Shown piece after piece: positions 12,702 to 17,574 of a stretch of 19,960 bases of DNA (the first letter of the stretch is position 1; each line of letters starts with the position of its first letter). Both the position numbers and the translations under genes were made by a program. This stretch comes from Bacteroidota bacterium. Its GTDB lineage: Bacteria > Bacteroidota > Bacteroidia > Bacteroidales > Prolixibacteraceae. A model generated the notes under the pieces. The model was not told where the DNA came from, ran no database searches, and saw only the letters and a program-made list of their open reading frames with translations. Where the stretch lies: assembly GCA_030691295.1 (NCBI GenBank), contig JAUYEQ010000221.1, forward strand, positions 1-19,960. Reading direction: 5' to 3'.

Positions 12702-12731
12702 TTTGTTTATTCGTCAAAAAAACTATTTTTG
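12702..12731 (+). promoter_or_regulatory. Promoter of the amino-acid permease gene
   Basis: TTTG (12702-12705), an 18-nt spacer, then TATTTTTG (12724-12731), an exact -7 box. Transcription would start near 12738, which places the true start codon at ATG 12754 rather than the upstream in-frame TTG at 12703. Confidence 0.65.
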
Positions 12732-12750
12732 GAACTCCTTAAAAATAGTT
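12721..12750 (+). repeat. Perfect 10-bp inverted repeat over the permease promoter and 5' UTR
   Basis: AACTATTTTT (12721-12730) is mirrored by AAAAATAGTT (12741-12750) with a 10-nt spacer, ending 3 nt before the ATG at 12754. The left arm contains most of the -7 box and the spacer spans the expected start of transcription. It could be a dyad operator; a second inverted pair, CAATTGT/ACAATTG (12659-12665, 12685-12691), lies upstream of the -33 element. Confidence 0.6.
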
Positions 12751-12753
12751 TTT

Positions 12754-14268
12754 ATGTCGAAATTATTTGCAACAAAACCAATTTCACAACTACTTAGCGA
12801 GTCAAAATCTGACCAGGGATTAAGAAGAACCTTGAGCGCCACCAACCTAACCACGCTTGGTGTTGGGGCAGTTATTGGCGCCGGAATATTTGTTCTTACC
12901 GGTCAGGCGGCAGCGCAGTATGCAGGTCCGGCAATCGTCATTTCGTTTCTTATTTCAGGATTTGCATGCCTTCTGGCAGGTTTGTGCTATGCAGAGTTCG
13001 CTTCGATGATCCCAATTTCAGGAAGTGCATACACCTACGCATACGCAACCATGGGCGAATTTATTGCATGGATTATTGGCTGGGACTTAATTCTGGAATA
13101 CCTGTTTGCAGCCTCCACCGTTGCTGTCGGATGGTCGGGTTATGTGGTAAGCTTTCTGAAAGATTTCGGCATCTTTATTCCTGCTCAGTTTACAGCAGCA
13201 TTTGGAACAGTTTTGGTCGATATTCCGCAGATTGGCTGGAAAACCCTGACTCCTGAACTGACAAAAAATCTTGCGGATTCAGGAATTTTCACTGAAAACC
13301 TTCCACATCTATCGGCCATTTTAAATTTGCCAGCCATGTTCATTGTAGCCGCAGTCACCATTTTGCTGCTTGTCGGGATCCGCGAATCGACCAGGTTCAA
13401 CAACCTGATGGTCATCATTAAAGTGTCAATCATTCTCCTGTTCATTGCCATTGGCGCGTTTTTCGTGACCAAAGCCAACTGGCAACCTTTTATTCCTGAA
13501 AACACAGGCGAATGGGGACATTACGGTTGGAGCGGTATTTTCAGAGGGGCAGCAGTTATTTTCTTTGCCTATATTGGTTTTGATGCAGTTTCGACGGCAG
13601 CTCAGGAATCAAAAAATCCGCAACGAGATTTGCCAATCGGTATTCTGGGATCTCTGGGTATTTCAACAGTTTTGTACATACTGATGGCCATCGTACTGAC
13701 AGGCATTGTAAGTTACTCATTTCTGAATGTGTCAGACCCTATAGCCGTGGGAGTTGATGCAATGGGCAAAGGCTTGTTCTGGTTGCGGCCAATAATTAAA
13801 ATAGCCGCCATTGCCGGATTAAGTTCAGTTATACTGGTTTTACTGATGGGACAGCCCCGTATTTTCTTTGCAATGTCGAAAGACGGATTGTTGCCACCTA
13901 TTTTCTCGAAGGTTCATCCCCGCTTTAAAACACCTTTTGCAAGCACGATCATTACCGGTTCAGTTGCATTTGTTTTGGCCGGAATTCTTCCAATCAATAT
14001 TCTTGGCGAACTGGTTTCAATCGGAACATTGCTCGCATTTGCAATTGTATGTGTTGGCATTGTTATTCTCAGAGTAAAGCGACCCGATATTAAAAGAACT
14101 TTCAAAACCCCATTTTCGCCCTTCGTACCGCTTTTGGGCGCAGGAATTTGTGTTCTGCAAATGCTTTCACTGCCCTTGGATACATGGTTGCGGTTAACTG
14201 TTTGGATGGCTTTGGGGATCGCAATATATTTCGCTTACGGAATCAGGAAAAGTAAATTACGGCAATAG
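12754..14268 (+). CDS. APC superfamily amino-acid permease (cationic amino-acid transporter type)
   Basis: Inner-membrane amino-acid transporter of the CAT/YfnA-like branch of the APC superfamily. From the ATG at 12754 it has 504 residues and about twelve hydrophobic segments. Signature regions are TTLGVGAVIGAGIFVLTGQAA (TM1, substrate-binding Gly motif), ISGSAYTYAYATMGEF, IIGWDLILEYLFAAS, and FFAYIGFDAVSTAAQESKNP before QRDLPIGI. Substrate cannot be read from sequence; cationic or broad amino acids are likely by family. It is monocistronic, with its own promoter upstream and minus-strand RNA cassettes downstream. The TTG at 12703 is rejected because it overlaps the -33 element. Confidence 0.92.
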   Translation: MSKLFATKPISQLLSESKSDQGLRRTLSATNLTTLGVGAVIGAGIFVLTGQAAAQYAGPAIVISFLISGFACLLAGLCYAEFASMIPISGSAYTYAYATMGEFIAWIIGWDLILEYLFAASTVAVGWSGYVVSFLKDFGIFIPAQFTAAFGTVLVDIPQIGWKTLTPELTKNLADSGIFTENLPHLSAILNLPAMFIVAAVTILLLVGIRESTRFNNLMVIIKVSIILLFIAIGAFFVTKANWQPFIPENTGEWGHYGWSGIFRGAAVIFFAYIGFDAVSTAAQESKNPQRDLPIGILGSLGISTVLYILMAIVLTGIVSYSFLNVSDPIAVGVDAMGKGLFWLRPIIKIAAIAGLSSVILVLLMGQPRIFFAMSKDGLLPPIFSKVHPRFKTPFASTIITGSVAFVLAGILPINILGELVSIGTLLAFAIVCVGIVILRVKRPDIKRTFKTPFSPFVPLLGAGICVLQMLSLPLDTWLRLTVWMALGIAIYFAYGIRKSKLRQ

Positions 14269-14286
14269 GCAACAGAAACGCTTATG

Positions 14287-14313
14287 AAAAAAAAAGGATG
14301 AATCTCTTCACCC
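14287..14313 (-). terminator. Terminator of small RNA copy 1
   Basis: Minus-strand stem GGGTGAA / TTCATCC (14313-14307 with 14302-14296), loop GAGA, followed by nine U (14295-14287). No T tract follows on the plus strand, so it serves the minus strand. Confidence 0.6.
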
Positions 14314-14376
14314 TTTCCTTACAAAACCAAACTTATTTTTTCTATGAAAAAAAAATGTACCCTTTACTCCTATTGC
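14287..14376 (-). ncRNA. Predicted small RNA, copy 1 of a paralogous pair
   Basis: Predicted from three elements on the minus strand: a -7 box TATCTTTG (14390-14383), a region of ~75 nt, and a terminator hairpin (14313-14296) followed by nine U. The RNA would be about 90 nt. It shares with copy 2 an internal U-run, then CATAGAAA and AGGTTTGGTT. The hairpin pairs fully only as minus-strand RNA (G-U wobble) but has an A-C mismatch as plus-strand RNA, which supports this orientation. No known family was recognised. Alternative: the plus strand reads like a leader ending in ATGAAAAAAA, as before TonB-receptor genes. Confidence 0.5.
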
Positions 14377-14382
14377 ATGTGT

Positions 14383-14428
14383 CAAAGATAGTACTGAATA
14401 AAGTTAACGCATCTGAACCAACGTTAAA
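14383..14428 (-). promoter_or_regulatory. Promoter and TTAAC sites of small RNA copy 1
   Basis: On the minus strand a TTAAC site (plus GTTAA at 14423-14427), a second site GTTAAC (14408-14403) 20 nt on, a 12-nt spacer, then -7 box TATCTTTG (14390-14383). The same order and the same two spacings occur in copy 2. Confidence 0.5.
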
Positions 14429-14474
14429 GATTCTTAATTCTATTTTTTTGAAATTGGAATTCAGTAAAAAGCAC

Positions 14475-14506
14475 AAAAAAAAAAGGATGGCCCCAACCAT
14501 CCTTTT
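14475..14506 (-). terminator. Terminator of small RNA copy 2
   Basis: A perfect 10-bp stem AAAAGGATGG / CCATCCTTTT (14506-14497 with 14490-14481 on the minus strand), loop TTGGGG, and a U tract to 14475. The plus strand has only four T after the stem, so the minus direction is favoured. Confidence 0.75.
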
Positions 14507-14567
14507 CGTACCTAACCAAACCTATTTCTATGAAAAAAAACTAATGCTCTATTGCTTATCTTTAACT
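14475..14567 (-). ncRNA. Predicted small RNA, copy 2 of a paralogous pair
   Basis: Same architecture as copy 1: -7 box TATATTTG (14581-14574), about 60 nt of RNA, an internal run of eight U followed by CATAGAAATAGGTTTGGTTAG, then a hairpin and ten consecutive U (including stem positions). Predicted length is about 93 nt. The two -7 boxes lie 191 nt apart. It is upstream of and antisense to the ppdK leader side, but does not overlap ppdK. Expression evidence is lacking. Confidence 0.52.
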
Positions 14568-14573
14568 ACGATA

Positions 14574-14654
14574 CAAATATAGTGTGGCAATCAGTTAACT
14601 TCTATCAAAGATCGTTAAGGATTGTTAAGATTTTAATGAATTAAAGTTTGTTAA
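14574..14654 (-). promoter_or_regulatory. Promoter and TTAAC site array of small RNA copy 2
   Basis: Minus-strand -7 box TATATTTG (14581-14574), 12-nt spacer, GTTAAC (14599-14594), then further TTAAC sites whose plus-strand GTTAA starts are 14614, 14624 and 14650. Spacings of 20 and 10 put three of the sites on one helix face. Confidence 0.5.
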
Positions 14655-14850: not shown

Positions 14851-17574
14851 ATGACAAAGTACGTTTACACGTTTGGAAATGGTGCAGCTGAAGGAAAAGC
14901 TGATATGAAAAACCTGCTTGGGGGCAAAGGCGCCAACCTTGCTGAGATGAACCTGATTGGTGTTCCGGTCCCTCCCGGGTTTACAATCACTACTGAAGTA
15001 TGTGCCATTTACAATAAACTGGGTCGTGAAAAAGTGATCGAACTCCTTAAGGCTGAAGTTGAAGCAGCCATCGCGCAGGTTGAAAGTCAAACCGGAGGAA
15101 AATTCGGTGATGCTTCAAATCCGCTTTTGGTTTCGGTACGCTCAGGTGCACGCGCTTCGATGCCGGGTATGATGGATACCATCCTGAATCTCGGACTGAA
15201 CGACACAGTGGTGGAAGGCATGGCCAAAAAAACCGGTAATCCGCGTTTTGTTTGGGATAGCTACCGCCGTTTTATCCAGATGTACGGTGATGTTGTTCTC
15301 GACTTGAAACCAACATCTAAAACCGACATCGATCCGTTCGAAGAAATTCTGGAAGAATTAAAACACGAAAAAGGTGTTATCAACGACAACGAACTATCAG
15401 TTGATGCCCTGAAAGAATTGGTAACAAAATTCAAAGCTGCGGTTAAAATCAAAACCGGTCACGATTTTCCTGAAGACTCATACGAACAGCTATGGGGCGC
15501 CGTTAGCGCAGTATTCAACAGCTGGATGAACGACCGCGCCATTTATTACCGCCAGTTAAACCAGATTCCAGAAGAATGGGGAACAGCAGTGAACGTGCAG
15601 GCAATGGTATTCGGTAATATGGGCCTTTCATCAGGAACAGGCGTTTGCTTTAGCCGTGATGCCGGAACCGGAGAAAATATTTTCAACGGTGAATACCTGA
15701 TCAATGCACAGGGCGAAGATGTTGTAGCCGGTATTCGTACTCCACAGCAAATTACGCTGGAAGGTTCAAAACGCTGGGCTGTATTGGCCGGTGTTACTGA
15801 AGAAGACCGTGCCGCCAATTATCCTTCACTCGAAGAAGCAATGCCGCAGATGTACCAGGAATTGTTCACCATTCAGAAGAAACTTGATACTTACTTCAAG
15901 GACATGCAGGATATGGAGTTCACCATTCAGGAAGGTAAAATGTGGATGCTGCAGACCCGCAACGGAAAACGTACCGGCGCTGCAATGGTGCAAATTGCCA
16001 TCGACATGCTGAAAGAAGGTTTACTCGACGAAAAAACTGCCTTACTCCGCGTTGAACCCAATAAATTAGACGAACTTTTACACCCTGTTTTCGATAAAAA
16101 AGCGATTAAAGCGGCCAAAGTTTTGGCAAAAGGTTTACCTGCCTCTCCGGGAGCAGCAACCGGCCAGATTGTTTTCTTTGCCGACGAGGCTGAAGAATGG
16201 GTGGCACAAGGCAAAAACGTAGTTCTGGTGCGTATTGAAACTTCTCCTGAAGACCTTCGCGGAATGAACGTTGCCAAAGGTATTTTAACTGCCCGTGGCG
16301 GTATGACTTCACACGCTGCCGTTGTTGCACGTGGAATGGGCAAATGCTGCGTTTCGGGTGCTGGTGCTTTGCAGATTAATTACAAACAGCGCACCATGAC
16401 TGTTGGCGGAAAAGCTTTTCAGGAAGGCGATTTTATCTCGCTGAACGGAACAACCGGCGAAGTATATGAAGGCAAAATTGCTACCATCGATCCTGAACTG
16501 AGCGGTTACTTTGGAGAACTGATGGAAATCGCTGATAAATACAAACGGATGTCGGTCCGTACCAATGCAGATACACCAAAAGATGCACAGATTGCCCGCA
16601 ATTTCGGAGCTCAGGGAATTGGCCTTACCCGTACAGAACACATGTTCTTCGAAGGCGACCGCATCAAAGCAATGCGCGAAATGATTTTGGCCGACGATGT
16701 TGCCGGACGCGAAAAAGCGCTCGAAAAACTGTTGCCAATGCAGCGCAGCGACTTCGAAGGTATTTTTGAAGCAATGGCCGGTTACGGTGTGACCATTCGT
16801 TTGCTCGATCCGCCATTGCACGAATTTGTTCCTCACGAAGAAGCCAACCAGCTTGTTATGGCCAAAGAAATGGGCATTTCTGTTGAACAGGTAAAACACA
16901 AAGTAGAATCGCTGCACGAGTTTAACCCAATGTTGGGTCACCGTGGCTGCCGTTTGGGTATTACTTATCCTGAAATTACAGCCATGCAGGCCCGCGCGAT
17001 CATCGAAGCTGCAATGAACCTGAAAGCAAAAGGTATTGACGCACGTCCTGAAATCATGGTTCCATTGGTTGGTACTGTTGCCGAATTGAAAAACCAGACT
17101 GAAATCATCCGTAGTGTTGCCGAAAAGGTATTTGCTGAAGTGGGCGACCGCATCGACTACCAGGTAGGTACCATGATTGAAATTCCACGTGCTGCCTTAA
17201 CAGCCGACCATATTGCCGCCGAAGCCGATTTCTTCTCGTTCGGAACCAACGATTTAACCCAGATGACTTTGGGTTATTCGCGCGACGATGCCGGTAAATT
17301 CTTACCAGACTATCTGAACCGCGGTATCCTGAAACAAGACCCATTCCAGGTGATTGACCAAAACGGTGTTGGACTTTTAATGGAAATTGGTGTAACCCGT
17401 GGAAGAATGAACAAACCGAACCTGAAAATTGGTATTTGTGGCGAGCATGGCGGCGAACCAAGTTCGGTTGAATTCTGCGACAAATTGGGAATGAACTACG
17501 TAAGCTGTTCACCTTACCGCGTGCCGATTGCACGTTTGGCAGCAGCTCAGGCTAATATCAGACACAGTAAGTAA
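14851..17574 (+). CDS. ppdK: Pyruvate, phosphate dikinase
   Basis: Interconverts pyruvate, ATP and phosphate with PEP, AMP and pyrophosphate, serving glycolysis or gluconeogenesis in the cytoplasm. At 907 residues it matches the family. The N-terminal ATP-grasp domain begins with the [10 protein letters not shown] motif, followed by [11 protein letters not shown] and [20 protein letters not shown]. The swivelling phosphohistidine domain carries H488 in [15 protein letters not shown]. The C-terminal PEP/pyruvate TIM barrel shows [26 protein letters not shown] and the catalytic C863 in [10 protein letters not shown]. The ATG at 14851 follows a ~160-nt leader. It appears monocistronic; repeats and a terminator follow. 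Codon use is smooth and no defects were seen. Confidence 0.98.

Follow-up and report, generated by a model that had tools for sequence, protein, structure and literature searches.

A tandem pair of FopS-like small RNA genes beside ppdK in Prolixibacteraceae, with seeds predicted to pair with SusC start regions

Introduction

FopS is a family of paralogous small RNAs (sRNAs) of Bacteroides thetaiotaomicron (PMC11697453). In that report, FopS RNAs are described as repressing SusC translation by pairing with the start codon and as being antagonized by the RRM protein RbpB; 12-15 copies are given per Bacteroides genome, and the family is presented as conserved within Bacteroidaceae, with the addition of one phage (PMC11697453). 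Another Bacteroides sRNA, GibS, is described in PMC7366714 as pairing around start codons through a conserved, single-stranded seed in its 5' part; it also carries another seed, R2, and its promoter is PM2.

The present analysis concerns a pair of minus-strand cassettes in a 19,960-nt stretch of DNA (the window) from a Bacteroidota bacterium of the family Prolixibacteraceae. The comparative evidence identifies the cassettes as real sRNA genes, FopS-like in kind, with a predicted function. They resemble GibS in having a 5' seed predicted to pair around start codons, whereas their promoter is a TAnnTTTG box in place of PM2 and the second seed R2 is a feature of GibS. Compared with FopS, the promoter array, the 5' extension, the arrangement and the seed of the predicted RNAs are new. 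Full-text literature searches, at title level beyond PMC11697453 and PMC7366714, found no description of this Prolixibacteraceae module family.

Organization of the locus

The two modules, in tandem on the minus strand, are flanked by an amino-acid permease gene (12703-14268, plus strand; PF13520), which adjoins them here and seldom elsewhere, and their divergent neighbor ppdK, encoding pyruvate phosphate dikinase (14851-17574, plus strand; Pfam PF01326, PF02896 and PF00391). Measured from the box through the U-tract, they occupy positions 14287-14390 (copy 1) and 14475-14581 (copy 2), and they have diverged from each other while remaining alignable. Both follow the same order: an upstream element, a promoter box, 33 nt (copy 2) or 27 nt (copy 1), a U-run, CAUAG, an A-rich stretch, the motif [A/G]GUUUGGUU, a hairpin, and a terminal tract of U10 or U9, respectively. 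The main features of the original prediction, which described two diverged minus-strand copies in tandem, each with a box, a U-run and a terminator, are therefore present.

The TAnnTTTG boxes read TATATTTG in copy 2 (14574-14581, minus strand) and TATCTTTG in copy 1 (14383-14390, minus strand). A conserved upstream region had been proposed for both copies and was found in both, but it reaches position 14628, past the end originally given; TTAAC arrays were located on the minus strand at 14594-14628 (copy 2, no mismatches to the pattern) and 14403-14437 (copy 1, one mismatch). The seed of copy 2 consists of U8 followed by CAUAG (14528-14540, minus strand) and is antisense to [C/U]UAUGAAAAAAAA, and that of copy 1 consists of U9 followed by CAUAG (14342-14355, minus strand). 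The CAUAG motifs had been noted correctly, except that copy 1 reads AAGTTTGGTT, not AGGTTTGGTT. Intrinsic terminators are present on the minus strand at 14475-14502 (copy 2; hairpin 14502-14485, U10 14484-14475) and 14287-14313 (copy 1; hairpin 14313-14296, U9 14295-14287). As had been observed, the copy 1 hairpin contains a G-U pair on the minus strand that corresponds to an A-C mismatch on the plus strand, and the U-tracts exist on the minus strand only, as do the boxes.

The distance from the box to the end of the U-tract is 96-99 nt, so the RNA would be about 90-95 nt long; about 60-75 nt of RNA had first been proposed. The putative sRNA genes thus span 14475-14569 (type A, copy 2; minus strand), with the 5' end set 5 nt past the box following the FopS model, and 14287-14378 (type B, copy 1; minus strand), with the 5' end placed in the same way.

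Conservation of the sRNA genes

An exact core pattern of the module was found in 18 of 61 genomes, the source genome included, with 17 of the 23 genomes of the genus among them; the reversed pattern gave no match in the same 61 genomes. A covariance model, R1, was built from 25 copies (alignment A4), which remained from 29 collected copies after near-duplicates had been left out; FopS was excluded, and both window copies were among the 25. At E ≤ 0.01, the E-values being rough, R1 matched 115 of 120 genomes assigned by record name to Prolixibacteraceae, the family of the source genome, with 1 to 15 matches in each. Such a search of relatives had been suggested as a check of the original prediction. 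The window copies, as members of the training set, scored 88.5 bits (copy 2, 14477-14539) and 79.1 bits (copy 1, 14288-14353).

Covariation in the terminator hairpin was examined in two alignments. In the alignment of 92 copies, which was fitted to the model and so leans towards the structure, 97.8% of the paired cells are standard pairs, double changes occur at all 11 of 11 pairs, the number of double-changed cells is 141 compared to 28.9 in shuffles, and none of 500 shuffles was as high on all five covariation measures. The free alignment A4 contains 94.8% standard pairs and 26 double-changed cells (9.5 in shuffles), but double changes at only 3 of 11 pairs and nine additional pair types, neither value exceeding that of the shuffles. 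The consensus fold of 13 type-A copies comprises an unpaired 5' part and the terminator. A generic terminator scan detected one terminator, that of copy 2 (0.3 expected), and missed that of copy 1, and a generic sigma-70-type scan found no promoter at the cassettes.

The folding energy favors the minus strand in both copies (-21.4 vs -8.7 and -21.6 vs -14.2 kcal/mol). The z-scores relative to shuffles point in opposite directions (copy 2: plus strand -4.0, minus strand -2.6; copy 1: plus strand -1.5, minus strand -3.0), and consequently folding alone does not indicate the strand. An alternative raised together with the original prediction is that the repeat is a duplicated plus-strand leader or small gene beginning at ATGAAAAAAA, as found before TonB-receptor genes. 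The likeness behind it is real: the plus strand reads TTTCTATGAAAAAAAA, which resembles many SusC starts, the seed being antisense to the SusC start regions. As a gene start, however, the plus-strand sequence had to be rejected. Frames from ATG (91 of the 92 copies carry the CAT) range from 3 to 83 codons, with neither a constant length nor a conserved frame, the U-tract and box lie on the minus strand only, and the start of ppdK itself lies some 320 nt downstream. A plus-strand leader or gene is thus hardly credible. Homologues that keep nothing but a plus-strand frame, which would have spoken against sRNA genes, were not seen, the frames being short and variable across the 92 copies. What supports the original prediction of duplicated minus-strand sRNA genes is that the module is conserved across the family, that its hairpin covaries, that it has terminators and a conserved promoter, and that no plus-strand frame is conserved.

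Promoter box and TTAAC array

TAnnTTTG is a known promoter element of Bacteroidota. Of 87 family copies examined, 81 have it no more than 75 nt away, although the boxes picked in L044 and L302 are probably wrong; this count refers to 87 of the 92 rows of alignment A6, five weak rows having been left out, while the frame and array counts refer to all 92. In copy 2, TTAAC occurs at -47, -37 and -17 from the box and TT at -27, in exact 10-bp steps. Of the 92 copies, 80 include a box together with the complete upstream sequence, and 78 of these 80 show TTAA at -37 as well as at -17. In a background of 185 boxes (the window and L247-L277) TTAA at both sites was found before two, equal to the window's own two. 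At most sites, whether beside ppdK or elsewhere, array and box stand at a constant distance from the sRNA. The 10-bp period matches a full turn of the helix; regulators of the OmpR/PhoB type use sites arranged in this way.

In the source genome, the array pattern with up to one mismatch matches only the twin. Among the matches at two mismatches, one lies upstream of a dispersed copy on contig C299 (described below); the total is six matches, compared to nine for a reversed control. PM2, near-palindromic at -10/-30 in the description given by PMC7366714, was considered as the upstream motif and rejected. Among the papers listed by a literature search on TTAAC repeats and response regulators in Bacteroidetes, none had a title that fitted.

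The TTAAC array was found in none of 30 FopS loci (L096-L125). In 17 of these loci a palindrome, TATGTT-N4-AACATA (up to two mismatches), precedes the box, and it was found in none of the 81 window-type copies with a box. The palindrome is possibly the site of a FopS regulator.

Copy types and distribution

Type A, represented by copy 2, is characterized by UAGGUUUGGUUAGG and the hairpin GGAUGG/CCAUCC, and type B, represented by copy 1, by AUAAGUUUGGUUUUGU. Within the genus the two types recur next to each other, about 160-220 nt apart, with the exception of L027, in which two A-like copies take the place of A and B. Other genera have longer arrays, such as the one in L045, where 3 kb contain seven copies, and a single genome can have as many as 15 matches.

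A mixed model including FopS and intermediates, R2, was built on alignment A9, from which the one reverse-strand row of A8 was excluded by a tighter E-value. In the source genome R2 found two dispersed copies (C299:9940-10018 and C70:5237-5315) and a weak fifth, and the count of two given by R1 was therefore too low. The dispersed copies carry the seed UUUUUUUUCAUAAGUUUAGG (CAUAAG), with 7 nt from the box to the U-run and 11 nt from the box to TTTTCAT. TTAA is kept at -47 and -37 in both, and is replaced at -17 by TTATA in one and by ATATC in the other. In the weak fifth relative (C598:349-409, L372), CATAAGTTAGGTTTGATTAG is present but the long U-run is missing; repeats resembling GTTTAGTTAGG come next, and then a terminator.

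Phylum-wide, R2 matched 9 of 247 genomes at E ≤ 0.001 (the source genome, two of the same order and six of the same class), and R1, in the class, matched 35 of 247 genomes at E ≤ 0.01; in several of these the matched place lacks the seed. On these counts a phylum-wide family is not established. Three weak R2 matches in a different family within the class (L348, L349 and L350; f80) have a common GGTTTTTCATAATTTAAAGTTTGGTTGGTTATTTAGG before the terminator and could represent a separate related family. The core pattern was also observed in twelve viral contigs (L235-L246), in which BLAST found none of the window proteins.

Relation to FopS

No Rfam family matched the window at the curated cut-off. 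At a loose threshold, RF04319 (FopS) was the best Rfam match of both copies, below its gathering score of 56 bits: copy 2 scored 33.7 bits (14473-14541) and copy 1 scored 23.5 bits (14286-14354), the latter at chance level given other matches of 23.4, 23.2 and 23.0 bits in the source genome. Copy 2 is the top RF04319 match of this genome (E 0.006), and copy 1 is absent among the matches listed for it. In the loci of 20 relatives, RF04319 accounted for 24 of the 30 Rfam matches listed (32.3-38.6 bits, E 0.036-0.59), each at an R1 copy, so that 24 of the 48 R1 copies in these loci were found, all below the threshold; there was no RF04319 match in L027, L034 and L064, nor in the family genomes G023 and G032. 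In the opposite direction, R1, made without FopS, matches the FopS RNA in all 30 FopS loci, which were taken as the best one per genome from an RF04319 search of the order (E < 0.01 for 27 loci and no higher than 0.091 for the other three). The initial statement that the RNAs belong to no recognizable family thus had to be revised. The other weak Rfam names (HrrF, STnc390, L20 leader and BTnc231) were taken as chance or U-run matches. An RF04319 match was obtained in 52 of 198 genomes from this order, above the cut-off in 34 of them and in many families, which shows that FopS is wider than Bacteroidaceae.

Both groups of RNAs comprise an unpaired 5' part followed by one terminator hairpin, and both have the seed UUUUUCAU (invariant in the 25 rows of A4, themselves collected by a pattern holding it), the UAG-UUU-GGUUA stretch, a TAnnTTTG promoter and a seed complementary to SusC start regions. 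Both are multicopy, with four copies and one weak copy in the source genome, although most family genomes have fewer than is the case for FopS. The window RNAs differ from FopS in staying below the Rfam gathering score (best relative 38.6 vs 56 bits) and in having the seed CAUAG, whereas most FopS loci have CAUGG. The distance from the box to TTTTCAT is 37 nt (copy 2) or 32 nt (copy 1), compared to 8 nt in 30 of 30 FopS loci; with the 5' ends placed by analogy, the window RNAs would have a 5' extension of about 25-30 nt and a seed lying off the extreme 5' end. The TTAAC array, the tandem arrays, the synteny with ppdK and the Prolixibacteraceae host are further differences.

Such features could also be explained by convergence, that is, by an sRNA of separate origin with a terminator and a U-rich seed antisense to AUGAAAAA, SusC starts being alike everywhere. 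The RF04319 scores below the cut-off and the different upstream control, with the palindrome confined to FopS loci and the array to window-type copies, are what convergence would lead one to expect, and a U-run together with a U-tract lifts any model score. However, the likeness to FopS continues past the seed, into the UAG-UUU-GGUUA before the hairpin (RF04319 alignment), intermediates (L071, L078, L080 and L093) occur in other families of the order, and the dispersed copies of the source genome lack the long 5' extension, with 11 nt from the box to TTTTCAT compared to 8 nt in FopS. We therefore regard a separate origin as unlikely and treat the cassettes as FopS-like sRNA genes.

Complementarity of the seed to SusC start regions

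The test set comprised 28 of the 40 SusC matches of the source genome, 10 without a locus and two without an N-terminus having been left out. These starts have T at -1 in 23 of 28 cases and C or T at -2 in 23 of 28. The median duplex energy of the copy 2 seed was -15.7 kcal/mol for the 28 SusC starts and -9.9 kcal/mol for 31 other starts (p 7e-6; this and the following p-values are too optimistic, since leaders are shared among SusC paralogues through common descent and MKKK is a frequent start). With ATGAAA starts only, the values were -16.1 for 21 SusC genes and -10.3 for 11 other genes (p 9e-4). The ATG is preceded by [C/T]T in 22 of 28 SusC starts and 6 of 31 others (p 5e-6), and when pairing was limited to the part through ATG, a small difference remained (p 0.013). 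Both window seeds separate SusC from other starts by duplex energy, and so does the C-type seed (p 2e-4), the pairing cases not being independent events because the SusC genes are paralogous. With 50 scrambled seeds, the SusC median averaged -10.2 and reached -12.4 at best, the real seed giving -14.8. A first control of 86 genes, which contained at least three SusC genes and consisted partly of loci chosen by the seed pattern, was biased against the claim; the 31-gene control left out seed-pattern loci, and in both sets starts were assigned by a rule favoring an ATG with a K or R codon next to it.

The comparison was extended to one FopS genome, G529 (15 FopS matches), in which 30 of 56 SusC matches were taken. 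On these starts its own FopS reached -13.8 and the window RNA -11.2, while on the SusC starts of the source genome the window RNA reached -15.7 and the FopS of G529 -11.9. This reversal of preference was significant for SusC (p 9e-7), and other genes showed no switch (p 0.35). The window seed also favors SusC in G529 (p 0.014; the control being eight non-SusC genes), so part of the pairing effect is generic. Some SusC starts pair poorly (L250, L256, L260 and L267), and some non-SusC genes pair equally well (L016, -20.7 kcal/mol). The seed pattern itself, with 20 matches, is no commoner than the reversed control, with 19, and SusC starts make up 5 of the 18 non-self matches.

SusC leaders ending in TCT pair best with type A or B (5 of 5), and those ending in TTT or CTT with the C type (8 of 9), a preference that is partly due to the seed letters themselves. 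To judge from this pattern, the SusC leaders may be shared out among the paralogues. One RRM_1 protein, of 156 aa and with a glycine-rich tail, is encoded in the source genome, on contig C269.

Proposed mode of action

Our preferred reading, to which we assign a probability of roughly 0.78, is that the cassettes are tandem paralogous genes for trans-acting, FopS-like sRNAs of about 90-95 nt that would repress SusC-type starts. It draws on the conservation, the covarying hairpin, the promoter array, the family distribution, the match between R1 and FopS, and a seed-SusC complementarity above controls. For the individual steps, we infer that transcription proceeds from the TAnnTTTG promoter to give the 5' ends placed above, and that it is probably switched by a DNA-binding protein reading the TTAAC boxes at 10-bp steps. 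Each RNA would consist of an unpaired 5' part with the U8-9/CAUAG seed, the motif [A/G]GUUUGGUU and the intrinsic terminator. The seed would bind across the start codon of mRNAs for outer-membrane transporters of the SusC type ([C/U]UAUGAAAAAAA...), and this pairing would block translation initiation and thereby repress the target, as in FopS. An RRM protein would probably act as a partner or antagonist of the RNAs. The predicted target class is SusC-like proteins with [C/T]TATGAAAA starts, and the window copies and the two dispersed paralogues (seed CAUAAG) may divide the SusC leaders among themselves.

Gene neighborhood

In 28 of the best 30 genomes, a set in which 19 belong to the same genus, the module and ppdK are divergently oriented, and the permease gene lies within the ~3-kb locus in 4 of the best 30; of the two neighbors named originally, ppdK is the better conserved. 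Among 20 chosen loci from 11 other genera, ppdK adjoins the module in ten, which fall in five genera, and no ppdK was found within the fetched ~2-3 kb on each side in the other ten. An AhpC-like gene adjoins the module in six of these ten ppdK-less loci, together with a desulfoferrodoxin gene in four of the six. Pfam confirmed AhpC in the four loci tested (L290, L300, L301 and L303) and desulfoferrodoxin in all four, and the AhpC names for L304 and L307 come from reading the translation.

The recurrence of ppdK, both in the best 30 genomes and in half of the loci chosen from other genera, would suit cassettes that mainly regulate ppdK itself, through divergent transcription or control in cis. 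This is at odds with the ten loci that have no ppdK in the fetched stretch, six of them beside an AhpC-like gene, with a seed that fits SusC starts, and with the spacing of array and box to the sRNA, fixed at most sites of both kinds. Regulation of ppdK as the main function is accordingly very unlikely, and trans-acting sRNAs directed at SusC-type starts remain the preferred reading.

In a wider and tentative interpretation, which we consider possible but rather doubtful, sRNAs antisense to SusC start codons would be a long-established system within Bacteroidales and perhaps throughout the phylum, with seeds and leaders changing together by lineage and each lineage coupling them to its own signal. 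In the present case a dedicated regulator of the TTAAC boxes beside a central-carbon gene, ppdK, would let the pyruvate/PEP state set which polysaccharide transporters are made. Apart from this interpretation, a FopS-related system in Prolixibacteraceae with seeds fitted to its own SusC leaders would make sRNA control of polysaccharide uptake older and wider, extending beyond gut Bacteroides. It would yield testable predictions for each leader and each paralogue, and the conserved promoter array would allow its regulator to be sought.

Among named species, the core pattern was found in 109 stretches, 31 of them with ppdK nearby; the ppdK-linked records include Prolixibacteraceae, Sunxiuqinia, Mangrovibacterium, Gaoshiqia and others, and many of the remaining stretches, in unrelated taxa, are probably due to chance. 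One MAG record, named Chitinophaga pinensis (L221), has a ppdK 97% and a permease 87% identical to those of the source genome, and its record name is probably wrong. The dispersed copy at C70:5237-5315 (L360) adjoins an oxaloacetate decarboxylase beta-subunit gene, again a gene of pyruvate/oxaloacetate metabolism.
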